DNA of 64,000 bases from Natronomonas salsuginis (GTDB lineage: Archaea > Halobacteriota > Halobacteria > Halobacteriales > Haloarculaceae): positions 434,001 through 498,000 of the forward strand of contig NZ_QKNX01000002.1 of assembly GCF_005239135.1 (NCBI RefSeq), in the 5' to 3' direction. Positions 3,718 to 41,009 of the stretch are shown here, one piece after another; within the stretch, counting starts at the first letter, position 1, and every line of letters begins with the position of its first letter. The translations under genes were made by a program, and so were the position numbers. The notes under the pieces are model-generated. The model was not told where the DNA came from. It worked only from the letters and a program-made list of their open reading frames with translations, and ran no database searches.

Positions 3718-5037
3718 ATGCACATCCACCGCACCTACCGAGCGAAAATCCTCAACCATCAGCAGGTAGAGGACTCGCTCGAACGGCACGGGTGGAGTGC
3801 GTCGAAACTCTGGAACGTTGCAAACTATCATTCCCGCCAAGTGTGGGATGAGACGGGCGAGATCCCCGACGATTCGGACTTGAAGAGCGAGTTGAAGACT
3901 CACAACAAGTACAAAGGACTGCACAGTCAGTCCAGTCAGCGCGTTCTGGAGGAACTCGCTGAAGCCTTCAACTCGTGGTACGAAACAAGGAAGTCTGATG
4001 ATCGTGCAAATCCGCCCGGCTACCGCAAGAAAAACTACTACGACTCAGAAGGCCGCCGTGTCCACGAAGAACACCGGCGTAGCACGGTGACGTGGAAGCA
4101 GAAAGGCATTCGTCACGATACCAACAACGGGCGAGTGCGCCTCTCTAAAGGAGCGAATCACAAGGACCACCCCCGAGCATGGGAATACATCCTTGTTGAA
4201 TACGAAACGCGCCCCGGAGTTACCGTCGAGAACCTGCAACAAGTCAGGGCCGTCTACGACAAGGCGAAAAGGCGCTGGGAACTGCACTTAGTGTGTAAGC
4301 ACGAAGTGGAGACGCCCGACTCTCCCGGTGACGAGACGGCGGGTATCGACCTTGGTATCCGCAACTTCGCCGCTGTCGCGTACAGTACCGAGGAAGCCGA
4401 CTTGTACCCCGGCAATCGTCTGAAACAGGACGGGTACTACTTCCCGAAAGAAATCGCAAAGTGTGACGATTCAGACGGCCAAGAAGCCACTCGATTGCAC
4501 TCGAAGTGGTCGGAGCGTCGAACCCACTTCTTCCACTCCTTAGCCAAACACATCGTTGAACGATGTGTCGAGCAAGAAGTGGGTCGAATCAACTTCGGGG
4601 AACTTGCTGGTGTTCGAGAAGACGGGAACGGCGAGTCAAAGAACTGGGGGAAGCACGGCAACCTCGACTTGCACGGGTGGGCATTCGACCGGTTCTCGAA
4701 CATCCTCGAATATAAGGCGAAAGTCAAGGGCATCGAAGTCGTAGAAGTATCCGAGAGCGACACGAGCAAGACGTGTTGTGTTTGCGGTAAGAAAGACGAC
4801 AGTCAGCGTGTTGAGCGTGGTCTATACGTCTGCGAGACGTGTGATGCGGCGTTCAACGCTGACGTGAACGGGGCGGAGAACATCCGTCTCGAGATCAACG
4901 ATGAAAGTAACTCTGAGTCTGCACCCAATTTGGGTAGGGATAGGAGTACCGGCTGGTTGGCACAGCCCGGAGTCTACCTTCACGACTTGTCCAGCGGATT
5001 CCAACCGAGGGAACAAGTGGTAGACTGCAAACCCTAA
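3718..5037 (+). CDS. tnpB: TnpB RNA-guided nuclease of an IS200/IS605-type element
   Basis: The 439-residue protein looks intact. The split RuvC active site is complete: D211 in GIDLGIRN, E295 in NFGELAG, and D382 in FNADVNGAENI. A zinc ribbon lies between the last two, with C353/C356 and C372/C375. TnpB proteins are RNA-guided DNA nucleases that help keep their element in the genome; the guide RNA is made from the 3' end of the gene plus the right end. Start ATG 3718 gives MHIHRTYRAKILNHQQVE, typical of haloarchaeal members. No tnpA is adjacent. Because all motifs are present, it may be active, unlike the relic at 10597-10957. Confidence 0.93.
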   Translation: MHIHRTYRAKILNHQQVEDSLERHGWSASKLWNVANYHSRQVWDETGEIPDDSDLKSELKTHNKYKGLHSQSSQRVLEELAEAFNSWYETRKSDDRANPPGYRKKNYYDSEGRRVHEEHRRSTVTWKQKGIRHDTNNGRVRLSKGANHKDHPRAWEYILVEYETRPGVTVENLQQVRAVYDKAKRRWELHLVCKHEVETPDSPGDETAGIDLGIRNFAAVAYSTEEADLYPGNRLKQDGYYFPKEIAKCDDSDGQEATRLHSKWSERRTHFFHSLAKHIVERCVEQEVGRINFGELAGVREDGNGESKNWGKHGNLDLHGWAFDRFSNILEYKAKVKGIEVVEVSESDTSKTCCVCGKKDDSQRVERGLYVCETCDAAFNADVNGAENIRLEINDESNSESAPNLGRDRSTGWLAQPGVYLHDLSSGFQPREQVVDCKP

Positions 5038-5100: not shown

Positions 5101-7160
5101 GTCCGGATGAGATAGTTGCCTGCGTCGGTTACCGTTGCCTCACTATCCGGTGGGAGCACTATCGTGGTGTTTTCATCGTCGATGAACGCCGGACCGTCGA
5201 TCGAGCAGTCGGCCGTGAGTCGCTCGGAGCGATATGCGGGGCAGGTAAGCATCGACTCTCCGAAGTATGCCTCCCGCTCGGCGTACGGTGCCGGATCGGA
5301 GGCGTCTGACGTCGGCGAGACGGGTGTCGAGAGCGGGTCTCCATCGTCGGTCGACCCCCTCGCATCGACCCGCCACTTGAGAAACTCGACGCTCTCGTCG
5401 GGCATGGCGTACCCGAACGTGGAGTCGTGTCGGTCGTGGAACCGCTCGACGAGTCGCTGTTCGTCGTCAGCACCGACCCGTGAAACCGGGAGCTCGATCT
5501 GCAGTTCGTCCATCTGTTGTGGATATCGAGCATCGGCGTAAAACGACAGTGACTGATCCGCTCGTTCGATTCCAGCTCGGTCGAAGAAGGCGCGGGCATC
5601 CGATTCGAGGTCGACGAGCGTGTCGTTGACCGCGTCGTGATCGAAGTGCTCGCTGTCGGTGAAGACGCTCGAAACGAAGTCCTGACGGATGTCAGAAGAG
5701 AGGCCACCGATCGAACTGACGACGCCAGCGTCCTTCGGAAGCGCGATCTCGTCGATCTGCAGTTGACGGGCGAGTTCGACCACGAACGTCCCGAGCGCAC
5801 CGCCGCCGCCGCTGAGGACGTAGTTCCGTGGATCGATCCCCTGTTCTATCGTCACGGTTTTGATGCCGTTCACCATGTCCTGGATCGTGGTTCCGTAGAT
5901 CGAGTAGGCGGCTTCGAGCGGGGGCAGACCCAATCTGGAACCGATCCGCTCTCGAATGGCTCGGTCGGCTGCTTGTCGATCGAGTTTCATCTCGCCGCCC
6001 AGAAAATACTCGGGATTCAGATATCCGAGAACGAGCGCGGCGTCAGTGACTGTCGGTGCTTCGTTTCCGCGGCGATAACACACCGGACCGGGATCGGCAC
6101 CGGCGCTTTCAGGTCCGACCCGGAGGAGGTTCCCGTCGTCCACCCACGCGATAGAGCCGCCGCCGGAGCCGATGCTCTTTATCCCGACTTTGTCGATGCC
6201 GAGCATGTAGTGGTCGCCGACGACCGCATCAGTGCTCCGGGGGATCGATCCGTCGGTGACGACGCACATGTCCAGACTGGTGCCGCCCATATCGAGCGCG
6301 ATAACGTCGTTCGAATCCAGTTCGCTCTTCGCCAACTGTCGGGTGGCGACGGGGAGCATCGTTGGGCCGGCGTCGACTGTCCAGATCGGACTGTCGGCGA
6401 CCTCTTCACTTCCCATCACCCCGCCGTTTGCGGTGATGATGAGGGGATCGCCCTCGAAGCCCCGGGACCGAAGTTCGTGCGAGAGACGGGAGAGATAGGA
6501 GTTCACTAGCTCGTACACCGCGGCGTCTAGCGCGGTCGAAGACGTCCGCCGGTGTTCTCTGATCGTAGGGTTGACTTCGTGACTGAGCGCGTAGTGTAGC
6601 TCCGGTGCGAGCTCGTCCAACAGCTCTCCGATCCGTTTCTCGTGGGCGGAGTTCGTATGCGACCACAACAGCGAGACGGCGACGGCGGTAACGTCGTCGT
6701 CGCGGATTTGCTCGATGATATCCCGAAGCTGCGTTTCGTCGAGTTCGGTTTCGATATCGCCCTCGGCCGTGATTCGCTCGGTAACGCCGTACGTCGACTC
6801 CCTGGGAACGAACGGATCCGGGAACGGACGCCACTCGTAGGTGTTCTTTTGGATTTCGGGGCGAAGCCAGAGGATATCACGGAAGCCCGCCGTCGTGATC
6901 AACGCCGTGTCCCGAGTGGTCCCTTCAATAATCGCGTTGGTCGAAACCGTCGTTCCGTGGACGAACTGCTCCGTGTCTGCGAGGAGCTCTCGAACAGTCA
7001 CGCCGTAGCTGTCCGCGGCTTTTTCCACGCTGTTGACGATCCCCAGTGTGAAGTCGTCGGGCGTGGTCGAGGTCTTGAACGAGTCCGCGTTACCGGATTC
7101 AGCGCGGAGATAGAGGTCGGTGAACGTCCCACCGACGTCGACGCAGATTCGGTACGTCAT
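5097..7160 (-). CDS. hyuA: Hydantoinase/5-oxoprolinase family, subunit A (HyuA-like)
   Basis: A 687-residue protein with the ASKHA-type ATPase signatures of HyuA: N-terminal ICVDVGGTFTDLYL, HGTTVSTNAIIEG, ALDMGGTSLDMCVV and SIGSGGGSIAW. Family members couple ATP hydrolysis to amide-ring opening of hydantoins or 5-oxoproline, or carboxylate acetone or acetophenone, together with subunit B. Its start overlaps the end of hyuB by four bases (ATGA). The stop codon lies within the last bases of the neighbouring TnpB element, so the native C-terminus may have been altered by the insertion. The substrate is not predictable. Confidence 0.92.
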   Translation of the reverse strand: MTYRICVDVGGTFTDLYLRAESGNADSFKTSTTPDDFTLGIVNSVEKAADSYGVTVRELLADTEQFVHGTTVSTNAIIEGTTRDTALITTAGFRDILWLRPEIQKNTYEWRPFPDPFVPRESTYGVTERITAEGDIETELDETQLRDIIEQIRDDDVTAVAVSLLWSHTNSAHEKRIGELLDELAPELHYALSHEVNPTIREHRRTSSTALDAAVYELVNSYLSRLSHELRSRGFEGDPLIITANGGVMGSEEVADSPIWTVDAGPTMLPVATRQLAKSELDSNDVIALDMGGTSLDMCVVTDGSIPRSTDAVVGDHYMLGIDKVGIKSIGSGGGSIAWVDDGNLLRVGPESAGADPGPVCYRRGNEAPTVTDAALVLGYLNPEYFLGGEMKLDRQAADRAIRERIGSRLGLPPLEAAYSIYGTTIQDMVNGIKTVTIEQGIDPRNYVLSGGGGALGTFVVELARQLQIDEIALPKDAGVVSSIGGLSSDIRQDFVSSVFTDSEHFDHDAVNDTLVDLESDARAFFDRAGIERADQSLSFYADARYPQQMDELQIELPVSRVGADDEQRLVERFHDRHDSTFGYAMPDESVEFLKWRVDARGSTDDGDPLSTPVSPTSDASDPAPYAEREAYFGESMLTCPAYRSERLTADCSIDGPAFIDDENTTIVLPPDSEATVTDAGNYLIRT

Positions 7161-32069: not shown

Positions 32070-32708
32070 TCAGCGCCAGTTCGACTCGTGTCCAGACGCG
32101 TCGATTCCGTTGGGCAGATACAGATGTGCGAGCGATGCGAGCCCGAAGGCGGCGGCGATGCCGAGCGCGACGGCGCTGCCCGGAACGGAGCCGAACGGGC
32201 CAACGCCGATCCAAAACAGGAGCGTCGCGGCGACGCACAGCCCCGCCAACAGGAGGTACAGCCGGCTCCAGAAGCGCTCGCGCTCGGGGGCGAACGTCAT
32301 GTAGCGGAGCACGTCGTCGACCTCCCCGGAGAGTTCGATCGATCCCCGCTGGGAATCGAACTTGACGACGCCCAGCCTGTCGAGTTTCGGCAGGTGCGTC
32401 TGGCGCAACGCCGTGTACACGCACTTTCGGTCGCCCGAATCGAGCCGATCGGGCGACGTGTCGTTCTCCCACGCAGCGACCTGGTCGACGAGCGCGCGAA
32501 AATCGATCGTCCCGCTGTCAGCGTGTGCTCTGAGGTATCGGAGGACCAATCGGCGGCGCTCGTTGCTCAGGATCTCGAAGATCTGCTCGCGGGTCCGCGT
32601 CCCGTCCGAGCGATCGGTGAACGCCAGCGGGTCGTCCCGTTCCGGTCGATCGGCGTCCGCATCCCGCGGGCCGTCGCGTAGTTCCGCCCTACTCGCCACG
32701 AGAGCCAC
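32070..32708 (-). CDS. DUF7344-type winged-helix regulator with two membrane helices
   Basis: A 212-residue protein. The winged helix starts at QIFEILSNERRRLVLRYLRA, continues with LVDQVAAWENDTSPDRLDSG and KCVYTALRQTHLPKLDRLGV, a signature shared with the proteins at 33503, 35539 and 39760. Two membrane helices follow (LYLLLAGLCVAATLLFWIGV and SAVALGIAAAFGLASLAHLY). It looks like a membrane-anchored DNA-binding protein. Translation appears to begin at GTG 32708. It opens the run of secretion-related genes that follows. Confidence 0.75.
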   Translation of the reverse strand: MALVASRAELRDGPRDADADRPERDDPLAFTDRSDGTRTREQIFEILSNERRRLVLRYLRAHADSGTIDFRALVDQVAAWENDTSPDRLDSGDRKCVYTALRQTHLPKLDRLGVVKFDSQRGSIELSGEVDDVLRYMTFAPERERFWSRLYLLLAGLCVAATLLFWIGVGPFGSVPGSAVALGIAAAFGLASLAHLYLPNGIDASGHESNWR

Positions 32709-32960
32709 CCCACAGCGGAGAGTATGTCATGCGTCGTGTTCCCCAAGAGGGGGTAGTGAGCAGTATCCATTAGTTAGCCGCGAGCTACATGATTGAAATA
32801 TATCATTTTCTGCGACGGCGTGTACACCGAGAGACAGCCGTTCGAGAGATGCAGCTGAACGCCAAAAGACGCACACTCCGAGGCGGTAAACACGTACTAA
32901 TCGAAGATAATCACGTATTAAATACAGTTTTACACCGATGACTATCCAATGCGGTGAGAA
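32709..32960. other. Intergenic stretch between two regulator genes
   Basis: About 250 bases with an AT-rich patch (GAAATATATCATTTTCTG near 32793-32810) and no coding signal. It holds the promoter of the regulator at 32070-32708. Confidence 0.4.
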
Positions 32961-33503
32961 TCATCGACGACGGTACGTCCAGGCCGTCGGACGGTGGGCC
33001 CACCACGCGTATCCGATCGAGGTGACGAAGGTGGTACCGACGCAGCAGCCGACCAGCCAAAGCGCCGGTATCCCCGCGAGCGGCGCCACGTCGAGCCGCG
33101 CGGCGAGCACGACGACGATCCAGACGAACGACTGAGCCAGAAACGCCCGGTTCCACACGCCGTGCTCGGTTCGAGTGGCGGCGGCATTTCGAAATCGGTG
33201 ACCGCGATCGGTGAGTGCGATCCGGCGCGTGTCCGCGTCGTAGGCCACCACCCCGGCGTCGATCAGCGCCGGAACGTGCGTCAGAGACAGCGACGCGTAC
33301 ACGGTGGCGTGGTGATCCAGGTCGGGCGGGACGGCGTCCAGCTCCCGTTCGCGGATCGCGACCCGATCGACCAGTTCGTCGAACGCCATCGGTCCCGCCT
33401 GGGAGAGACAACGGACGACGGCGCGATGACGGCGGCGAGCGATCGACCGAGTCTCGGCTTCCTCGCGCGGCGAGACGCCCGATCGTAGTCGATCGATCAC
33501 CAT
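32961..33503 (-). CDS. Divergent DUF7344-like winged-helix protein with membrane helices
   Basis: A 180-residue protein with a winged-helix core: RRRHRAVVRCLSQAGPMAFD, ELVDRVAIRERELDAVPPDL, ATVYASLSLTHVPALIDAGV. The last is a diverged form of the VYTALRQTHLPKLD signature in neighbouring regulators. Two hydrophobic helices follow (AFLAQSFVWIVVVLAARLDV and ALWLVGCCVGTTFVTSIGYA). It is likely a membrane-tethered transcription regulator. ATG 33503 gives MVIDRLRSGVSPREE. Confidence 0.65.
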   Translation of the reverse strand: MVIDRLRSGVSPREEAETRSIARRRHRAVVRCLSQAGPMAFDELVDRVAIRERELDAVPPDLDHHATVYASLSLTHVPALIDAGVVAYDADTRRIALTDRGHRFRNAAATRTEHGVWNRAFLAQSFVWIVVVLAARLDVAPLAGIPALWLVGCCVGTTFVTSIGYAWWAHRPTAWTYRRR

Positions 33504-33684
33504 CGCTCTATTCGCCCCGTGAGGGGGCGATGGCGGACGAGCAGGGCAGGTTGGCGACTCGTTTTGGACATGGGGCTACGGCTCCTATCGACGGAGATCC
33601 AGTTAACTAATCGCGAGTTGTTCGTCGACAGCGGATCGTTACGCGTCGAAGTAGGACTGGCACAGACCGGAGACCTCGGGAACG

Positions 33685-34830
33685 TCACCACCAGCCCGTC
33701 GGGGACTCGCGTTTTCGCTCGCGGGTTCGGACCGGTCCGAACCCGGTGACGAACAGAACGGGGACGACGAACACGGTCGAAATTACGGCGGTGACCGCGC
33801 TCATCGCGAGCCAAGGGTGGATCGCGTGCAGGGACAGGATGACCGACGGCGGGAGGACCACGAAGTACCGGTACTCGGCGTACGACCGGACGTACGCACC
33901 CGTCTCCGGCGGGGCCGTGACCGTCACCGTCACATTCGCTGACTCGCCGCGCGAGAGCCGCACGTGATCTGGCGGGCCGGTTTCGATCCCGCCGCTGGTC
34001 GGTTCGAGCGTGGTGACGACCGGGATGACGCCGCCGTTGTAGAACGTGTCGTTCCATTGTCGTTGTTCGCCGGCCGGGATGACCGTCGGCCGCTCGGAAT
34101 CGAAGCTCGCGCTGACGATATCGATCCGTTCGGTCCCGGACATGGCCCCCATCGTCCCCATCGACACCGTGGCGATGAACAGAATCGAGGCGAGGAGGAT
34201 CGTTCGGCCGTCGTAGACGTGCGGTCGGGAGCGCGACCGCGACCGGTCACCCCGCGGCCGACCCGAGCGCTCCTCGAACAGCCCGATCGCGTAGACGAGG
34301 GTTCCGAACCCGAAGAGCAGATACGACAGCCCCTGCGTCCCGAGAAGCGCGCTGGTCCCGAGCGTGGCGGCGAGCCCCTGTTGCGCCCGTCCGAGCCCGT
34401 CCTGTAGCCCCATCACCGCGGTCCCGAGATGGGGGATCACGACGACATCGCCGTCGACCCGGAGCGCCTTCGCCTTGATCTGGCCGTCGGAGACTGGCGG
34501 CTCCGTGTCCGCTTGGTCGGTTACGGTGTTGGCGTCGCCCTGCGTGACGTATCCCTGGTTGGTCTCGCCGACGACGCGGTGGGTCGTGAGCCCGCCGCCG
34601 TGGAGGTTCCGTGCCTCGAACGTGACGACGTCGCCGCGCTCGACCGGGCCGGCGACCGCGGCCGGGATCGCGACGAACCCGTCGCCAGCCTCCATCGTCG
34701 GCGCCATGCTCCCGGTTTCGACGAATGAGAGCAACACCGGCGTTCCGTAGAACTGCCCGACGAGAATCGCGGCGACCGACAGGAGGAGCCCCAACTCGAC
34801 GGTGTAGACGGCCGCGGATCGTAGATTCAT
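33685..34830 (-). CDS. ER-type (SipW-like) signal peptidase I with extra external domain
   Basis: A 381-residue S26-family peptidase. The nucleophile Ser41 is in VETGSMAPTM and His84 in GGLTTHRVVGE; a conserved GDAN follows near 98-101. His in place of Lys marks the ER/archaeal type to which Bacillus SipW belongs. The N-terminal membrane anchor is VELGLLLSVAAILVG. Unusually, two more membrane helices (TILLASILFIATVSMGTM and SAVTAVISTVFVVPVLFVTG) enclose an external beta-rich domain of about 90 residues. It lies just upstream of the DUF1102 genes and probably processes their signal peptides. Confidence 0.85.
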   Translation of the reverse strand: MNLRSAAVYTVELGLLLSVAAILVGQFYGTPVLLSFVETGSMAPTMEAGDGFVAIPAAVAGPVERGDVVTFEARNLHGGGLTTHRVVGETNQGYVTQGDANTVTDQADTEPPVSDGQIKAKALRVDGDVVVIPHLGTAVMGLQDGLGRAQQGLAATLGTSALLGTQGLSYLLFGFGTLVYAIGLFEERSGRPRGDRSRSRSRPHVYDGRTILLASILFIATVSMGTMGAMSGTERIDIVSASFDSERPTVIPAGEQRQWNDTFYNGGVIPVVTTLEPTSGGIETGPPDHVRLSRGESANVTVTVTAPPETGAYVRSYAEYRYFVVLPPSVILSLHAIHPWLAMSAVTAVISTVFVVPVLFVTGFGPVRTRERKRESPTGWW

Positions 34831-34870
34831 TGCTCGTGTGGCCTCAAAGGACCCGCGAATCCTTGGGTAA

Positions 34871-35539
34871 TCACCGATTACCCGCGGTCGGTGCGTCCGA
34901 ATCGGAATCCGAATCCGACGCCAGATAGTGGATCTCTGCGGGCTTTTCGGTCCGACCGAGTCGCTGTCTCGTCATGTGGTAGTGGTGTGCGGCCGCGAAC
35001 ACCGCGACGGTCACGAACATGAATATCCCCAAGGCGATGTCCGGCAGCGTCGACAGCGGCCACAGCCCGATCCAGGCCGCCGTCATGACGGCGAGCCCGA
35101 CCACCGAAAGGCCGAGGTAGTATCCGCTCCACGGGATGTCCCGCCCTTCGACGAGGTCGACGTAGATATCCATCGCCCCCATGGCGATCGTCGGTTCGAC
35201 GACCCCGCTCCGATCGTCGAACTCGATCACGCCCGCCTCGGCCATCTGTGGCAGGTGGATCTGTTGGAGCGCCGTGTACACGCGTTTTCGTTGCGCACAG
35301 GAGACGGCGTGGAGCTCGATCTCGTTCTCCCAGGCGGCGATCTGCTCGGCGAGCGTCCCGATCCCGACCGGCGCGTCCTCGCGTTTGAGGAAGTGTATCG
35401 CGTACCGCCGCCGCCGGTTCGAGAGCACGTCGAACAGTTCGTCTTCAGTGAGCGCGGGGGAGACGTGAGCGTCCGACGTGCTGTCGACGGATTCGACGAC
35501 GGTCTCGACGGCCTCGATCATACGATCACCCGTCCTCAT
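34871..35539 (-). CDS. DUF7344-type winged-helix regulator with membrane helices
   Basis: A 222-residue protein. The winged helix has DELFDVLSNRRRRYAIHFLK, LAEQIAAWENEIELHAVSCA and KRVYTALQQIHLPQMAEAGV. Two membrane helices follow (YYLGLSVVGLAVMTAAWIGL and IALGIFMFVTVAVFAAAHHY). A serine/aspartate-rich tail ends it. It lies 40 bases upstream of the signal peptidase on the same strand, so it is likely in one transcription unit with it, and is divergent from the DUF1102 genes it may control. Starts at 35539 or 35521 are possible. Confidence 0.77.
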   Translation of the reverse strand: MRTGDRMIEAVETVVESVDSTSDAHVSPALTEDELFDVLSNRRRRYAIHFLKREDAPVGIGTLAEQIAAWENEIELHAVSCAQRKRVYTALQQIHLPQMAEAGVIEFDDRSGVVEPTIAMGAMDIYVDLVEGRDIPWSGYYLGLSVVGLAVMTAAWIGLWPLSTLPDIALGIFMFVTVAVFAAAHHYHMTRQRLGRTEKPAEIHYLASDSDSDSDAPTAGNR

Positions 35540-35876
35540 CAGAGGGGTATTAGTATTGACAGCGTAGCCGAATCGGCGTTGGAGACAACCGATCGTTGTC
35601 GCTCGACCGAATTCGCAAATCGAGGCAGAGCGGGACGGGGTTCGCCGAAATCACGTCGGAATCACGATGGACGGCACACCACATAGACAGGGTGTCCGTA
35701 CGCTCACGAAAGCGACCCGTTGTTCGCGAGCAACCAGTCGTTGTTCGCGAGCAACCAGTCGTTGTCGGCGTTCAGACGGCTCAATACGAGGGTGGATACG
35801 GTCATAGAGCAGAGTGCGGCGTTCCCCTCTCGCGGCGCGGTACAGGGGGTGGGAACGCACCCAACGGAGTACAACA
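35540..35876. promoter_or_regulatory. Divergent regulatory region before the first DUF1102 gene
   Basis: About 340 bases between divergent genes. It contains a 21-base tandem repeat (35719-35760) and then a block from 35761 that recurs almost unchanged upstream of the third DUF1102 gene (38724-38837). I see no separate gene. The repeated block ends at the start codon, so it probably holds the promoter and leader. Confidence 0.45.
35719..35760 (+). repeat. 21-base tandem direct repeat, two copies
   Basis: GTTGTTCGCGAGCAACCAGTC occurs twice head to tail. The unit contains a near-palindrome (GTTGTTCGCGAGCAAC), so it could be a regulator binding site upstream of the DUF1102 gene. It is absent before the second copy of the duplicated leader. 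Confidence 0.65.
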
Positions 35877-36150
35877 ATGCAACGACGCAAATTCGTAATC
35901 GGCATGGGGGCGCTCGCATCCGGCGCGGCCGCCTCCGTCGGTACCGGCGCGTTCACCGCCATGCAGGCGGACGGACGCGAAGCAAACATCAACGTCGTCA
36001 ACGACGAAAGCGCGCTTATCGGCCTCAAGGCCGGTGACACCGATCTCGTCACCGGCACCAGCGACGGCCAGCTCGCGATCAACTTCAACCTCGACGACGC
36101 CGGCGACGGCGTCAACCCGAACTCCACCTACCAGGTCGGTGGACTCGGCG
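35761..36150 (+). repeat. Duplicated leader plus 5' coding block, copy 1
   Basis: From GTTGTCGGCGTTCAG through the first ~90 codons of the DUF1102 gene this DNA is almost identical to 38724-39110, including the non-coding leader. The rest of the two genes has diverged. Confidence 0.85.
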
Positions 36151-36608
36151 GGTTCGACACGGGGAATCTCCAGTACCTTCCGGGCGATCCGACCGCGAGC
36201 CCGAACGTCGAAAGCGTGGCCATCGACACGCAGACGCCCATCATAGACGAGCACGCGTTCATGGTCATGAACCAGTCGGGGGCCGAACAGCAGATCGAGG
36301 TCGCCTACGAGGCGAACGAGGAGTTCCCGGATGACGCGCAGGTCTACCTGGTCGCGTTCTACCCCGAGGGATCGGGAACGTCGTCCCAAGAGGAGGGCCT
36401 GGCCGTCGGCGACGTGACCGGGGAGAACCCCAAATCTGCGAGCATTATCTACGCCGACCAGCAGTACTCGGACCCGATCGGAGCCGGCAACAGCTTCTAC
36501 GTGACGATCATCGTCAACGTCGGTGACGCCGACCCGGGCACCGATCTCGGCGGGCAGATCACCGTCCGCGCCGGAAGCCACGACGACTTCACCAACGCGG
36601 ACGCGTAA
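35877..36608 (+). CDS. Secreted DUF1102-type protein, copy 1
   Basis: A 243-residue secreted protein. The signal region MQRRKFVIGMGALASGAAAS-VGTGAFTA has a twin-Arg near the start and the short GTGAF end typical of SipW-dependent signals. The mature part is beta-rich and acidic, with TYQVGGLGGF, FMVMNQSGAEQQIEV, NSFYVTIIVNVGDAD and the closing GGQITVRAGSHDDF. It is likely an exported structural or matrix subunit. It heads a run with the second DUF1102 gene 18 bases downstream. Start ATG 35877 is chosen because its first codons match the other copy exactly. Confidence 0.8.
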   Translation: MQRRKFVIGMGALASGAAASVGTGAFTAMQADGREANINVVNDESALIGLKAGDTDLVTGTSDGQLAINFNLDDAGDGVNPNSTYQVGGLGGFDTGNLQYLPGDPTASPNVESVAIDTQTPIIDEHAFMVMNQSGAEQQIEVAYEANEEFPDDAQVYLVAFYPEGSGTSSQEEGLAVGDVTGENPKSASIIYADQQYSDPIGAGNSFYVTIIVNVGDADPGTDLGGQITVRAGSHDDFTNADA

Positions 36609-36626
36609 CGGAGCAACGGACCACTC

Positions 36627-37265
36627 ATGAACAGACGCGACATCGTGCTCGGGCTCGGCGGGCTGATCGGCAGCGCCGGCGTTCTCGGTACGGGGGCGTT
36701 CACCGCGAACGAGTTCGAGCGGGAGTCGAGCATCTCGGTCGTCGACGACAGCGCCGGCTTGCTCGGTTTGGTTCCGAACGCGTCGATTGCGGGCGTGATG
36801 ACCAACGGTGGCGCGCTAACGATCGCTATCGACGAGGAGAACGGCGGTGTGAACGTCGACTCGGTGTATCAGTTCGGCGCGTTCGTCGACGGCGTGGGCG
36901 ACCTCACCGACGGGAAGTTCACGCTCGTCACCGACGACAACCCGGCTGACATGAGCGACGGGCAGGCTGGCCTCGAATCGGCGTTCGCCATCGTGAACCA
37001 GTCGGGGCAAACGCGAGACGTCACCGTCGACTTCGAGCTGAACGACGACATCGAGAGCGGTTCGCAGACAGAATACGCCTTCGAGCTCCAGCGTTCGATC
37101 GGCGGTAGTGGCCAGCGAATCGGCATCGCGACCAGTCCGATCGACGGCGACGTGACGTTCGGGATGGAGCCAGGAGACTCGGTCGGCGTCTCGTTCATCG
37201 TGAACGCCTTCGGTGGCTCCATTGGCGACGCGATCGACGGAAGCCTCGCGATCAGCGCGAACTAA
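36627..37265 (+). CDS. Secreted DUF1102-type protein, copy 2 (diverged)
   Basis: A 212-residue protein. Signal region MNRRDIVLGLGGLIGSAGVL-GTGAFTANEF again has twin Arg and the GTGAF end. After it comes RESSISVVDDSAGLLGLVPN, the block shared with its neighbours. The beta-rich body has VDSVYQFGAFVDGVG, FAIVNQSGQTRDVTVDFELN and a C-terminal VSFIVNAFGGSIG. It lies 18 bases after the first copy and is probably co-transcribed, yielding two related exported subunits. Confidence 0.78.
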   Translation: MNRRDIVLGLGGLIGSAGVLGTGAFTANEFERESSISVVDDSAGLLGLVPNASIAGVMTNGGALTIAIDEENGGVNVDSVYQFGAFVDGVGDLTDGKFTLVTDDNPADMSDGQAGLESAFAIVNQSGQTRDVTVDFELNDDIESGSQTEYAFELQRSIGGSGQRIGIATSPIDGDVTFGMEPGDSVGVSFIVNAFGGSIGDAIDGSLAISAN

Positions 37266-37440
37266 CGCAGCACCTTTTTTCGAGAGCGCGGGATCGAACG
37301 GCGAGTCGACCGAGTACCGGGGAGATCTGATCGATCGCCCCGGCAGAAGCAACTTCGAATGCGGAACGTGCCAACGTTTCGGTCGAAATCGCCCGCCTCA
37401 GCGCGCTCAAACGCGACCCGGTCGTATTCGGCCAGATTGC

Positions 37441-37448
37441 TTGTATAC
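37441..37448 (+). promoter_or_regulatory. TATA box of the lipoprotein gene
   Basis: TTGTATAC, 27 bases before ATG 37471; it decides the start, since the frame is open further upstream. Confidence 0.5.
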
Positions 37449-37470
37449 ATCGTCGGCGAATACAGCGACA

Positions 37471-38547
37471 ATGGTCCCCCAGAGACGCGACCTGTTGAAG
37501 ACGTTGACCGCACTTCCGGTAGCGACGGTCGCCGGTTGCACCGGCGTTCTCGATGACGGCGCGGTACCGGACTACGCCGAATCGTTGCCACGCGATGGGG
37601 CCAACGACGACGATGGTGTCTTTTTCGTTCATAGTAACGCTGAGTGGCTCCGTGGATTCAACGGAGAAGAGGAACTCCCCTACGCCGAGGAGTTGCCCGA
37701 TGCGTTCGATGTCGACATCGATCCGGATACGCCGCCCCTCGACGCCGATCCGCTGATCGCGTACCCGTCGGCCGGCCTCGTGCTCGGAGCGCTCGGCATC
37801 GGATTCGGACTCGTACCCTACGGGTTCGGCGATCTCCTTCTCGGTGGACTTGACGAGGAGGTCGCTCCCAACGACACGAAGTCGGAGCAAACATCCGAAA
37901 CGGATTCGGACGTGAGCGGGACCGTACGGATCGATTCGATGCTCCTCGTCGACGGGGTCGGCATCTTCCGTGGTGAGTTCGACGCTCGAACCGTCGTGGC
38001 TGCCGCCGGCGAGTTCGAACCCGCCGGCGAACAGGAAGAGTTCGACATCTACGAGGGGACTGACGATGGATTCCTGGGGACGGAAGAGCTGGCGTTCGCC
38101 GTCCGCGATGGCGTTCTCGTGACGCGGCTCGATGACGGCGCCGACATCGGCGCGGCTCTCGGCGCGATCGCCGGTGACGCCGAACGCCTGAACGATACCG
38201 ACGATGGGGGCTGGGCCCTCACGGAGGCAGGCCAGGGCAACGTCACGCTGGGTGTCTGGGGCGTCGACCCGGAGCAGGCCACCGAGCAGGAGACCGATCG
38301 CGAACTGGTCGACACGCAAGATGTCTTCGGAGACGCCGACGGGCTCGTGAGTTCGCTCACACTCGATCCCGAAGAGGGTGTCGGAACGATCACCGCCGTG
38401 TTCCCGGCCGAGCAGACGCCACAACGGGCCGCCCTCGAGAGTCGGATCGGGACGTCCGCCAGCACCCGCGAGATCGAAATCGACGGTACCAGGGTGTCGA
38501 TCGCTGGAATCTGGCGGGTGCCTGATGAGACGAACGACGATTCCTGA
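37471..38547 (+). CDS. Predicted lipoprotein of unknown function
   Basis: A 358-residue protein. MVPQRRDLLKTLTALPVATV-AGCTGVLDDG combines a twin-Arg (QRRDLLK) signal with a lipobox ending in Cys, so it is a Tat-exported lipoprotein. The mature chain is very acidic. It has a hydrophobic stretch (SAGLVLGALGIGFGLVPYGF) and a C-terminal domain with EGVGTITAVFPAEQTPQRAA. I do not recognise a family. Its place between DUF1102 copies suggests a cell-surface role in the same locus. Confidence 0.7.
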   Translation: MVPQRRDLLKTLTALPVATVAGCTGVLDDGAVPDYAESLPRDGANDDDGVFFVHSNAEWLRGFNGEEELPYAEELPDAFDVDIDPDTPPLDADPLIAYPSAGLVLGALGIGFGLVPYGFGDLLLGGLDEEVAPNDTKSEQTSETDSDVSGTVRIDSMLLVDGVGIFRGEFDARTVVAAAGEFEPAGEQEEFDIYEGTDDGFLGTEELAFAVRDGVLVTRLDDGADIGAALGAIAGDAERLNDTDDGGWALTEAGQGNVTLGVWGVDPEQATEQETDRELVDTQDVFGDADGLVSSLTLDPEEGVGTITAVFPAEQTPQRAALESRIGTSASTREIEIDGTRVSIAGIWRVPDETNDDS

Positions 38548-38567
38548 CAGAGAACCAATATTTTTAG

Positions 38568-38618
38568 CGTGAGATCAGCGTTCGCGCCGGCAGCCACGAC
38601 GAGTTCGGCCCGAACTGA
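38568..38618 (+). pseudogene. C-terminal fragment of a fourth DUF1102 gene
   Basis: The frame reads REISVRAGSHDEFGPN followed by a stop, matching the ends GEIVVRAGSHDEF and GQITVRAGSHDDF of the intact copies. Nothing else of the gene remains. It lies between the lipoprotein and copy 3 and shows that a further copy was lost by recombination. Confidence 0.8.
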
Positions 38619-38723
38619 ACCGGCACCGATCCCACCGATGTTCCGCGCGTTCGGATCGCTACCGAGCGGACTCCGCAGACGATGGGACACGACAACGGGT
38701 CGTTACCGCACGCACAGTCAGTC

Positions 38724-39110
38724 GTTGTCGGCGTTCAGACGGCTCAATACGAGGGTGGATACGGTCATAGAGCAGAGTGCGGCGTTCCCCTCTCGGCGCG
38801 GTACAGGGGGTGGGAACGCATCAAAGGTACTACCACTATGCAACGACGCAAATTCGTAATCGGCATGGGGGCGCTCGCATCCGGCGCGGCCGCCTCCGTC
38901 GGCACCGGCGCGTTCACCGCCATGCAGGCGGATGGACGCGAAGCAAACATCGACGTCGTCGCCGACGAGAACGGCCTCATCGGCCTCGAAGCCGGCACCA
39001 CCGATCTCGTCACCGGCACCAGCGACGGCCAGCTCGCGATCAACTTCAACCTCGACGACGCCGGCGACGGCGTCAACCCAAACTCTACCTACCAGGTCGG
39101 CGGCCTGGGT
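38724..39110 (+). repeat. Duplicated leader plus 5' coding block, copy 2
   Basis: Near-identical to 35761-36150, including about 115 bases of non-coding leader and the first ~90 codons. The last bases before the start codon and one CG-rich spot differ. Confidence 0.85.
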
Positions 39111-39572
39111 GACGTCGAGGACCTCCACTGGCTCCTCGACGGCAGTTCCAATGTGCCGACGGTCGATCAGATCGCGATCGACACGCAGACGCCCATCAAA
39201 GACGAGCACGCGTTCAAACTGCTGAACCAATCGGGCGAGGACCGGGCGGTCGAGCTGACCTACGTGCCGGACGAGGATCACGACAGCCTCCCCGGCGACA
39301 CGACAATCTACATGATCGCGGTCACCGACGACGACAACGCGCCCTCCTCGGAAACCAGAGAGGAGCTCGCGACGGCCGCGAGCAAGGACCGCGACGGAAG
39401 CATCCTGTTCACCGACGACGCGAAGTGGTCGGCAGATCTCAAATCCGGGAGCAGCGCCTACGTCACCATCCTCGTGAACGTGGGCGACGTCGATCCCGAC
39501 GAGACGGACCTCAGCGGTGAGATCGTCGTGCGGGCGGGCAGCCACGACGAGTTCACCGAAGACGATCTCTGA
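38838..39572 (+). CDS. Secreted DUF1102-type protein, copy 3
   Basis: A 244-residue paralogue of the gene at 35877-36608. Its signal region and first ~90 residues are nearly the same, while the rest has diverged (DQIAIDTQTPIKDEHAFKLL, SAYVTILVNVGDVDPDETDL). It ends GEIVVRAGSHDEFTEDDL. High DNA identity in the 5' part with divergence afterwards suggests recent duplication or gene conversion followed by selection on the exposed part. It should be exported and processed like the other copies. Confidence 0.8.
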   Translation: MQRRKFVIGMGALASGAAASVGTGAFTAMQADGREANIDVVADENGLIGLEAGTTDLVTGTSDGQLAINFNLDDAGDGVNPNSTYQVGGLGDVEDLHWLLDGSSNVPTVDQIAIDTQTPIKDEHAFKLLNQSGEDRAVELTYVPDEDHDSLPGDTTIYMIAVTDDDNAPSSETREELATAASKDRDGSILFTDDAKWSADLKSGSSAYVTILVNVGDVDPDETDLSGEIVVRAGSHDEFTEDDL

Positions 39573-39759
39573 TCGGCACCGACGACGATCGGCGATCGGG
39601 GACGGACGCCTTCGTTTTTCCACCATCGCGGAGCTGCACGGATGGCGCGAGGTAGTTATCGAGTTCCTAGACGCACCGACACCGACACAGGCTGTGATTA
39701 CCTTTACCCACAGCGGTCGTGCGTCGTGATATCGACGTCGCAGGAGCCGACGGACGACA

Positions 39760-40371
39760 GTGATGATCATGGATTCGACGACACGTTCGAAACGGGGCGG
39801 AAGGACCGGAGCGCCAGCCGGAACGCCGGAGAGACCCTCGCGCCACGACGTCTTCGACGTGTTGCGCAACCGGCGTCGCCAGTGGCTCATCCAGTATCTC
39901 CGGCGGAACGGCGGGGACGGCCCGTTCGAACTCGGAGAGCTCGTAGAGCACGTCGCGGCCCGGGAGACGGGGACGACTCGGGCGGAGATCACCGCCGCCG
40001 AACGCAAGCGCGTCTACAACGCGCTTCGACAGACACACCTGCCGAAACTCGACGACGCCGGCATGGTGACGTACGACCGCGAGGCGAACCGAATCGAGTT
40101 CGCGGCGGCGACCCGTTACGCCCACCGATATCTCGAACGCGCGCCCGGAACGGACGTGCCGTGGCACCGGTGGTATCTCGGCCTCTCGGTCGCGGTGACC
40201 GCGGTGATCGCCGCACATTGGCTCGAGATCGCACCGCACGGCGGCGGCTCCGGCAGCACGATCGCCGGCATCGTCCTCTCGCTCTTCGTGATCACGGCCG
40301 TCGTCCACGCGGTCGAGACGCGGACGGTACGCGGACGGATCGGCGACCGACTGGAGGTGACCAACGGGTGA
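39760..40371 (+). CDS. DUF7344-type winged-helix regulator with membrane helices
   Basis: About 200 residues. The winged helix has DVFDVLRNRRRQWLIQYLRR, ELVEHVAARETGTTRAEITA and KRVYNALRQTHLPKLDDAGM, as in the regulators at 32708 and 35539. Two membrane helices follow (YLGLSVAVTAVIAAHWLEIA and GIVLSLFVITAVVHAVETRT). ATG codons at 39760, 39763 and 39769 are all possible. Its stop overlaps the start of the secreted protein gene (TGATG), so regulator and exported protein are coupled. Confidence 0.77.
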   Translation: MMIMDSTTRSKRGGRTGAPAGTPERPSRHDVFDVLRNRRRQWLIQYLRRNGGDGPFELGELVEHVAARETGTTRAEITAAERKRVYNALRQTHLPKLDDAGMVTYDREANRIEFAAATRYAHRYLERAPGTDVPWHRWYLGLSVAVTAVIAAHWLEIAPHGGGSGSTIAGIVLSLFVITAVVHAVETRTVRGRIGDRLEVTNG

Positions 40372-41009
40372 TGTACAGACGAATCACCGCAGGCGCGTTC
40401 GCGTTCGCGCTGGTGCTGGCGCTCGTCGCGAGCGGCGGCTTTAGCGCGGCGGGAGTGGACAGAGACGCCTCGATCACCGTCGTCGGCGACGACCGAGCGG
40501 CGGTCGGCGTACAAGCGTGTCACCTCCCGAACCACGCGGGTCGGGGGGTGAGCGGCGGCGACAATGGCGATCCATCCGGGAACGAAAACGGCGGTCAGGC
40601 GAACCGCGTCACGCCGATCAGCGTCGAGATCACGAACCGTCTCGGAGCCGAACTCACCGTCCGAGAACTCACGGTGAACGGCGCGATCGTCAACAATCGA
40701 CCGTACGCGATGACGATCGCTCCCCACGGGAGCGAGCGCGTCACGGTTCCGGTTCGGCACGAAGCGAGCGAGGTGACGGTGGTCGTCTCGGCGAACGGCG
40801 TGAGCACCCGGGTAACGGTCTCAGAGATCAGCAGCGACGGGTGTCCGTTCCACGTGGCCGCCCCGCCGGTCACGGAAGGTGAAACGGGCGGCGACGAGTC
40901 GGGTGGAGCCAACGGAGGAAACGGCGGACACAGTCGAGAGAACGGTAGCGGTCAGGGCGGCGGTCAAGGCGACGACACCCGAAACGGCGATCCGCCGGGC
41001 AACGACTAG
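40371..41009 (+). CDS. Secreted DUF1102-related protein with Gly/Asn-rich tail
   Basis: A 212-residue protein with a signal peptide (MYRRITAGAFAFALVLALVA-SGGFSA). The first mature block, VDRDASITVVGDDRAAVGVQ, matches the RESSISVVDDSAGLLGL block of the DUF1102 proteins, so it is a distant relative. A beta-rich middle (VEITNRLGAELTVRELTVNG) follows. The last ~50 residues are Gly, Asn, Ser and Asp-rich and look disordered. Two Cys (VQACHLP, DGCPFHV) could pair. It is coupled to the upstream regulator gene. Confidence 0.65.
   Translation: MYRRITAGAFAFALVLALVASGGFSAAGVDRDASITVVGDDRAAVGVQACHLPNHAGRGVSGGDNGDPSGNENGGQANRVTPISVEITNRLGAELTVRELTVNGAIVNNRPYAMTIAPHGSERVTVPVRHEASEVTVVVSANGVSTRVTVSEISSDGCPFHVAAPPVTEGETGGDESGGANGGNGGHSRENGSGQGGGQGDDTRNGDPPGND

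Follow-up and report, generated by a model that had tools for sequence, protein, structure and literature searches.

Near-identical leaders and heads joined to divergent tails in two Tat-fimbria-like genes of Natronomonas salsuginis, with evidence for partial gene conversion

The Tat-fimbriae of haloarchaea ("tafi"; TafA, TafC, TafE; Galeva et al. 2025 iScience 28:111793, as described in PMC12687288) are among the described systems closest to the genes reported here. Further filaments to be compared are TasA fibres and the archaeal bundling pili or threads, which are donor-strand filaments (PMC9674648), and the type IV pilins PilA1-6 of Haloferax with their conserved N-terminal H-domain (PMC4371748). 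With regard to recombination, highly efficient gene conversion with long tracts between chromosome copies is described for Haloferax volcanii in the part of PMC8223754 used here. A report on the homogenisation of gene heads in Tat-fimbria genes was not found in the open-licence papers searched, which do not include the tafi paper.

We analysed a stretch of 64,000 nucleotides from Natronomonas salsuginis (contig NZ_QKNX01000002.1, positions 434,001 to 498,000), referred to as the window, which contains two genes, A and C, both intact and in direct orientation, with a shared N-terminal part (head) and different C-terminal parts (tails). The genes of the region are the following:

33685..34830, minus strand: signal peptidase, archaeal or SipW-like, 381 aa (NCBIfam sigpep_I_arch E 1.1e-13, 51.3 bits, cut-off 51.85; NCBIfam SipW E 5.7e-6; Pfam Peptidase_S26 E 0.0017, below cut-off)
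34871..35539, minus strand: DUF7344 protein, probably a winged-helix-like regulator, oriented divergently from A (Pfam PF24035 E 9.7e-30)
35877..36608, plus strand: gene A, 243 aa, twin-arginine signal, type 1 tail
36627..37265, plus strand: gene B, 212 aa, a related member of the family, placed second after A (TafE model E 5.6e-9, below cut-off)
37471..38547, plus strand: putative lipoprotein gene, 358 aa, between copies A and C
38568..38618, plus strand: 3'-end remnant of a further A/C-like gene, 16 codons and stop (E 2.9e-6 within the window)
38838..39572, plus strand: gene C, 244 aa, head as in A, tail divergent
39760..40371, plus strand: second DUF7344 protein (Pfam E 4e-28)
40371..41009, plus strand: secreted protein, weakly TafC-like (NCBIfam TafC E 2.6e-4, 20 bits, cut-off 410)

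Orthologs of gene B sit behind A in other genomes, and a DUF7344 relative is present in 34 of the 36 loci compared for the fimbria-like family. These 36 loci do not equal 36 genomes, as L036/L086 and L044/L090 each denote one region; from a separate locus comparison L036, L038 and L044 were dropped as duplicates of other loci, together with frame-chance ORFs. Among the 19 other genomes of the genus, 3 have relatives of the lipoprotein gene at 55-57%, and weaker ones occur in more. Its membership in the fimbrial set was considered and dropped, the relative in G003 being located on a different contig from the fimbria-like genes. A scan of 34501-40500 against Rfam gave chance-level matches only.

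The twin-arginine signal is seen in the sequence as a start of MQRRKF or MNRRDI followed by a hydrophobic stretch. The DUF1102 label given by the first-pass annotation had to be abandoned: A, B and C have no Pfam match above cut-off, the DUF1102 model (PF06510) finds none of the three, and its best match in the genome scores 16.9 bits (cut-off 22.2) on a different contig. In their N-terminal part the proteins resemble the TafE and TafA models, and this is, together with the twin-arginine signal of secreted haloarchaeal filament-type proteins, the likeness to Tat-fimbriae (PMC12687288). The difference is that all scores stay far below the curated cut-offs of the TafA/TafE models (NCBIfam NF052520, NF052522; for A 38.8 bits compared to 155 for TafE and 24.7 compared to 190 for TafA). 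This genome has better Taf matches at other places, on contigs C4 and C7. A profile match to PDB 9p0a, a solved "Pilin", was obtained with E 4.8e-25. The predicted model of A (pLDDT 69.7) is mostly beta with an unplaced N-terminal stretch (12-44); Foldseek of the model against the PDB returned no match at E<=0.001, and the top structural rows were 7ueg (Z 6.5) and 7pnb (Z 6.4), all rows having Z <= 6.5. These two top rows, the beta-rich model with its unplaced N-terminal stretch and the SipW-like peptidase in the neighbourhood are points of likeness to TasA and the bundling pili (PMC9674648), whereas a sequence match to these is absent and Z values of this size may reflect a common arrangement only. 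The proteins look like relatives of the haloarchaeal Tat-fimbriae, and a role in filaments is predicted by similarity.

The two loci had been described as near-identical through the leader and about the first 90 codons. Base-by-base alignment agrees that this stretch is shared, but it is an interrupted patchwork and not continuous. The likeness starts at 35756 and 38719, five bases ahead of the start given by the first-pass annotation, and the 20 bases preceding it agree at 6 of 20 positions. In the leader 102 bases (35756-35857) match save one 2-nt indel, and 7 of the final 17 bases up to the ATG differ. Within the coding sequence nucleotides 1-114 contain 2 differences (codons 1-38 near-identical), nucleotides 115-161 contain 13 (a changed patch, codons 39-54) and nucleotides 162-242 none (codons 55-80 identical), with divergence mounting beyond; the shared head comprises about 80-90 codons. 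The C-terminal halves have indeed diverged, 269 of 447 bases being identical in the tail compared to 250 of 270 in the head (first 90 codons). The synonymous divergence is likewise not uniform, with dS values of 0.066 for codons 1-41, 0.63 for codons 42-57, 0.24 for codons 58-90 and 0.82 for codons 91-243. The blastn match between A and C extends over 570 columns with E 1.9e-179, well outside what chance would give. The C-terminal fragment reported between the copies is real, its length being 16 codons and a stop and not 17 codons: its match to the 3' end of C (38569-38606) is at 87% and that to the 3' end of A (38572-38606) at 89%, with E 2.9e-6 each within the window. Beyond this remnant no further close copy of A or C was found in the genome.

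The shared part ahead of the genes contains the following features:

35756..35876, plus strand: leader of A, common with C over 35756-35857
38719..38837, plus strand: leader of C
35770..35787, plus strand: promoter-like box GTTCAGACGGCTCAATAC of A, putative in function
38733..38750, plus strand: promoter-like box of C, 18 bases identical to those of A
35819..35858, plus strand: inverted repeat GCGTTCCC...GGGAACGC in the leader of A, with weak folding support
38782..38819, plus strand: inverted repeat in the leader of C, loop shorter by 2 nt

The exact form of the box (R = A/G) occurs at four sites in 20 genomes of the genus, namely at A, at C and once each in G002 and G016, both times ahead of fimbria-like genes. 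Folding of the entire 145/143-nt leaders is no better than that of shuffles; in one leader folding analysis "first" and "second" genes were assigned from their position. For the hairpin in 14 Haloferacaceae leaders 95.5% of cells are paired compared to 31-61% when slid, with covariation not above shuffles (178/500). The layout of the leader is seen again in other genomes. As R1, a model made from the leaders of Haloferacaceae, gives no match to the leaders of the window, the likeness between the two leader types is confined to their layout. The 23 leader-bearing genes compared were 21 of the 22 R1 matches at E<=1.1e-13 plus G155 (8.7e-6) and Halobellus captivus L037; left out were G199 (no in-frame head ORF after the match) and the weak matches G113, G350 and G268. 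Among ten R1 matches examined, eight have a head ORF directly behind. Since a single conserved leader type is followed in Haloferacaceae by heads that resemble each other and tails that do not, modularity of head and tail may be a trait of the family.

Partial gene conversion, or an equivalent homologous recombination anchored in leader and head, is well supported. The recombination suspected by the first-pass annotation is supported: orthologous pairs lack the head/tail contrast, the trees of head and tail disagree, and a second genome shows the pattern again. For synonymous difference, the ratio of tail to head is 3.36 both in A/C and in the pair of a Halorubrum genome (G040), compared to 0.71-1.57 in 17 of 17 orthologous pairs (cross-species, of the same tail type, not independent, as sequences are shared between pairs). 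Identical codons are clustered in A/C and the G040 pair (p 0.001 and 0.00015; Fisher p 8e-6 and 3e-8). In G040 the genes follow each other as A-B-C, with the head/tail pattern seen in Natronomonas, and these were the only two genomes found with A-type pairs. Locally A and C are more alike than their history predicts, synonymous sites included, as known from concerted evolution of copies in one genome, and the tracts are a few hundred bases or less; the difference is that A and C are alike in promoter, leader and head only, with unlike tails. The conversion tracts described for H. volcanii in PMC8223754 are much longer.

The head of A is identical to that of C in 84/90 positions. The closest relatives of A's tail are Haloferacaceae genes and not the tail of C, with identities of 96/153 (G149) and 90/153 (H. 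aidingense) compared to 62/149. The AU test rejects a head of A placed with the G149 and H. aidingense genes (p 0.0055 protein, 3.6e-6 DNA). Tails of A and C forced together are not rejected (p 0.082), C's tail being a long branch, and therefore a fast evolution of C's tail after late duplication, which counts against recombination, retains some residual probability.

We consider it fairly probable that A and C are paralogous filament subunits with heads homogenised by recombination and tails from older, separate lineages. They would be Tat-fimbria/TasA-like surface-filament subunits whose genes form a small cluster together with gene B, the signal peptidase and the divergently oriented DUF7344 regulator. 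Homologous recombination between A and C, presumably non-reciprocal, within the genome and in several short tracts, could have kept a module of promoter box, leader, Tat signal peptide and first strands of the mature domain near-identical, and the two tails may each go back to a lineage of their own. Export by Tat might be followed by cleavage by the neighbouring peptidase and polymerisation via the N-terminal strand. The shared head would keep export and subunit contact alike, which might enable both subunits to enter one filament, and the tail, which we infer to be the exposed part, would be free to diverge. The earlier picture of a constant export module with a variable part fits this anatomy of Tat signal, conserved head and divergent tail. 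A constant assembly part with a diverse remainder across the subunits of one organism is also found in PilA1-6, which differ in belonging to an unrelated protein family with Sec/PibD export, and for which the part of PMC4371748 used here describes no homogenisation of leaders.

It is rather unlikely that A and C are instead recent duplicates, one of which recombined in the shared head with an incoming homologous gene and received the tail of the newcomer. This would be in agreement with the grouping of A's tail with Haloferacaceae and with the restriction of a close A-type gene to this one of 20 Natronomonas genomes. In Haloferacaceae, moreover, the heads behind the one leader type carry dissimilar tails, two of which most resemble genes with other leaders. 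However, a single swap predicts a uniformly near-identical head, and additional events would have to be assumed for the patches in codons 39-54 and in the 17 bases ahead of the ATG. In addition, it is the A-B pair as a whole, and not the tail alone, that resembles Haloferacaceae.

Purifying selection at the nucleotide level on leader and head only, after an old duplication and without recombination, is very unlikely: the recurring leader layout and the better amino acid conservation of the head in many pairs would fit, yet orthologs of the same tail type are near-equal in head and tail synonymous difference, and the conflict of the trees speaks against it. A programmed antigenic or phase variation, in which cassettes would be exchanged at a constant expression site and to which the first-pass annotation had likened the pattern, is highly improbable. 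A constant head, a divergent tail, direct repeats and the 3' remnant are what it would lead one to expect, but each copy is complete and has a promoter-like box and a leader of its own, an invertible arrangement and silent cassettes were not found, and the subset of neighbouring ORFs scanned contains no recombinase except a TnpB-type gene 30 kb off. The chance of an assembly artefact is negligible despite the draft state of the genome (12 contigs), given many differences inside the shared block, intact ORFs, distinct flanks and the same arrangement in G040.

The diversification of archaeal filament subunits is little studied. A/C and the G040 pair add natural cases of short-tract homogenisation in a haloarchaeal protein-coding family, in contrast to the long tracts described in PMC8223754. 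A common promoter and head with unlike tails predicts different subunits in one filament, and the shared head makes the part that has to be constant for export and assembly directly testable. We tentatively propose, as a possibility still open to considerable doubt, that haloarchaeal Tat-fimbria-like subunits consist of a portable 5' cassette and exchangeable tails, and that recombination in the cassette homogenises paralogs and splices new tails, leading to an evolutionary, non-programmed diversity of the surface. The portable cassette would then comprise the promoter box, the hairpin leader, the Tat signal and the first strands making the subunit contact, and such a two-part system would display unlike tails on one mixed filament.

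The genome holding the window comprises 2.9 Mb in 12 contigs (the window being C2 434001-498000), and the locus around the fimbria-like paralogs A and C is arranged in the following order.

Gene order along the locus (window coordinates)
Minus strand, signal peptidase gene
Minus strand, DUF7344 protein gene
35877-36608, gene A, preceded by a 121-bp leader
36627-37265, gene B, related to A and starting 18 bp behind it
Lipoprotein gene
38568-38618, remnant of a further A/C-like gene, 16 codons
38838-39572, gene C, preceded by a 119-bp leader
Second DUF7344 protein gene
Gene for a secreted protein weakly resembling TafC

The roughly 8 kb surrounding the fimbria-type genes (32070-40371) encode four DUF7344 proteins. 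A TnpB/OrfB gene of IS605 type with a Cas12f1-like TNB domain lies 30 kb from the array (3718-5034).

The likeness of A and C starts at 35756 and 38719, respectively. The leaders match across 102 bases with one 2-nt indel, which sits within the inverted repeat GCGTTCCC...GGGAACGC, and 7 of the final 17 bases ahead of the ATG differ. Two tandem copies of the 21-base unit TTGTTCGCGAGCAACCAGTCG (35718-35760) run up to the start of the shared leader ahead of A. Within the coding sequences there are 2 differences in nt 1-114, 13 in nt 115-161 and none in nt 162-242, after which the genes diverge; dS is 0.066 in codons 1-41 compared to 0.82 in codons 91-243. The near-identity of leader and head (the first ~90 codons) described in the first-pass annotation is thus present, but as an interrupted patchwork with differences clustered by tract instead of a single clean block. 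The C-terminal fragment of a further copy at 38568-38618 proved real.

Head and tail (the remainder of the gene) were also compared with related genes. The tail of A is identical at 96 of 153 positions to a gene of genome G149, at 90 of 153 to one of Halorubrum aidingense (G356), and at 62 of 149 to the tail of C. The heads of A and C agree at 84 of 90 positions, that of A with G149 at 62 of 90 and with H. aidingense at 62 of 89. In trees of 17 sequences the tail of A groups with three genes of the G149/H. aidingense kind (support 87/88), and its head with that of C (97/99). Placing the head of A in its tail group is rejected by the AU test (p 0.0055 for protein, 3.6e-6 for DNA); a tree constrained to unite the A and C tails is disfavoured without being rejected (p 0.082), the tail of C being a long branch.

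Constraint confined to the head fails to account for the synonymous pattern of A and C. The tail/head ratio of synonymous difference is 3.36 for A/C and 0.71-1.57 in all 17 pairs of orthologs with matching tail types (these pairs have sequences in common with one another). At positions where both proteins have an identical residue, excluding Met and Trp, codons are identical at 71 of 79 in the head versus 40 of 69 in the tail (Fisher p 8e-6), and the identical codons are more clustered than under permutation (p 0.001).

The A-type profile matches in 24 of the 392 genomes of the order at E<=1e-25, and two A-type genes besides B-type ones occur only in the window's genome and in G040, a Halorubrum of the same genus code as H. 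aidingense; the three matches in G181 are of another type and were kept apart from this count. Among the 170 genomes of the G040 family, 23 have a match at E<=1e-40, two such genes again occurring only in G040. There the order A-B-C is that of the window, leaders and heads are near-identical (head 262/285 bases, tail 258/447), and the ratio is likewise 3.36 (Fisher p 3e-8). Behind C in G040 (L085, about 5250-5362) lies what is left of a second, decayed B (16 residues at 94%), so the duplication there took in a whole A-B unit. As the C tails of the window and G040 are not clear partners (66/148, compared to 64/147 for the window's A tail and the C tail of G040), both duplications may be independent. 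In G181, the first two of three tandem members, which are without separate leaders, have 91% of their bases in common over codons 1-42, falling to 53% in the remainder. Head identity of at least 0.91 was found only in the A/C, G040 and G181 pairs among 48 same-locus pairs.

A conserved leader is noteworthy since most transcripts of Haloferax volcanii are leaderless (PMC3986360). Support for leader structure is mixed. The mean folding z is -1.48 for 39 leaders labelled first versus -0.21 for 18 second genes, and -0.86 and -1.63 for the two window leaders, which as a whole fold no better than shuffles. Among 14 Haloferacaceae leaders, the hairpin has 95.5% of cells paired, with covariation not above shuffles.

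A model, R1, built from 14 Haloferacaceae leaders does not find the window leaders. It matches in 24 of the 392 genomes (26 matches at E<=0.001, 22 of them at E<=1.1e-13), and the matched leaders precede similar heads of otherwise quite different proteins, as in eight of ten further matches. Between 23 genes with such leaders, 124 of 253 pairs lack detectable tail similarity (blastp E<=1e-3); mean identity of leader plus 27 codons is 0.80 in these and 0.81 in the other 129. The tails of loci L097 and L098 are closest to genes that carry other leaders and stem from other families (59% to L096, 57% to L017). This suggests cross-species recombination between heads and tails, though part of the likeness may reflect descent plus selection on the leader. 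Across 20 genomes of the window's genus, the promoter-like box GTTCAGACGRCTCAATAC is present in its exact form four times, preceding A, C and, in G002 and G016, genes whose tails are of a further type. The G016 gene (contig C22, L018 11512-12440) is frameshifted at an A4G7 run near codon 52, its tail continuing in a different frame; this may reflect a phase-variable tract or an error in the draft genome.

Several observations point to A and C as filament subunits. A, B and C each start with a twin-arginine signal, and their N termini match TafE/TafA models of haloarchaeal Tat-fimbriae (E 7.6e-10 to 4.1e-4, far below the cut-off). A search with the family profile retrieves the solved 'Pilin' 9p0a (E 4.8e-25), and the predicted model of A is mostly beta (pLDDT 69.7, residues 12-44 unplaced); its two best structural rows, Pyrobaculum bundling pili (Z 6.5) and Sulfolobus threads (Z 6.4), may reflect a common arrangement only. 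DUF7344a matches at 34 and the signal peptidase at 10 of 36 compared loci, which include some regions counted twice, and DUF7344 might regulate from the leader. Genome G004 encodes a 511-aa protein of the A/C head type (L012 1501-3033) whose later part resembles, by eye, a von Willebrand A domain. A haloarchaeal-type gene of the family (48% over 85 aa) also lies on a MAG contig labelled Spirochaetaceae (L040 1111-1674), which is probably mis-binned; L042, labelled Lentisphaerae, may be likewise.

The proposed antigenic or phase variation is unsupported, as A and C are both complete with their own leaders, no silent cassette was found in the genome and the nearby ORFs that were scanned include no recombinase. 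In two genomes, tandem filament-type genes show recombination limited to promoter, leader and head. Such a mechanism belongs to a known class; for this family, the literature that could be searched contains no report of its being confined to a 5' cassette joined to unlike tails. The subunits would be exported by Tat and cut by the neighbouring peptidase, an N-terminal strand would join them, and the homogenised head would then be the part required to fit the neighbouring subunit.
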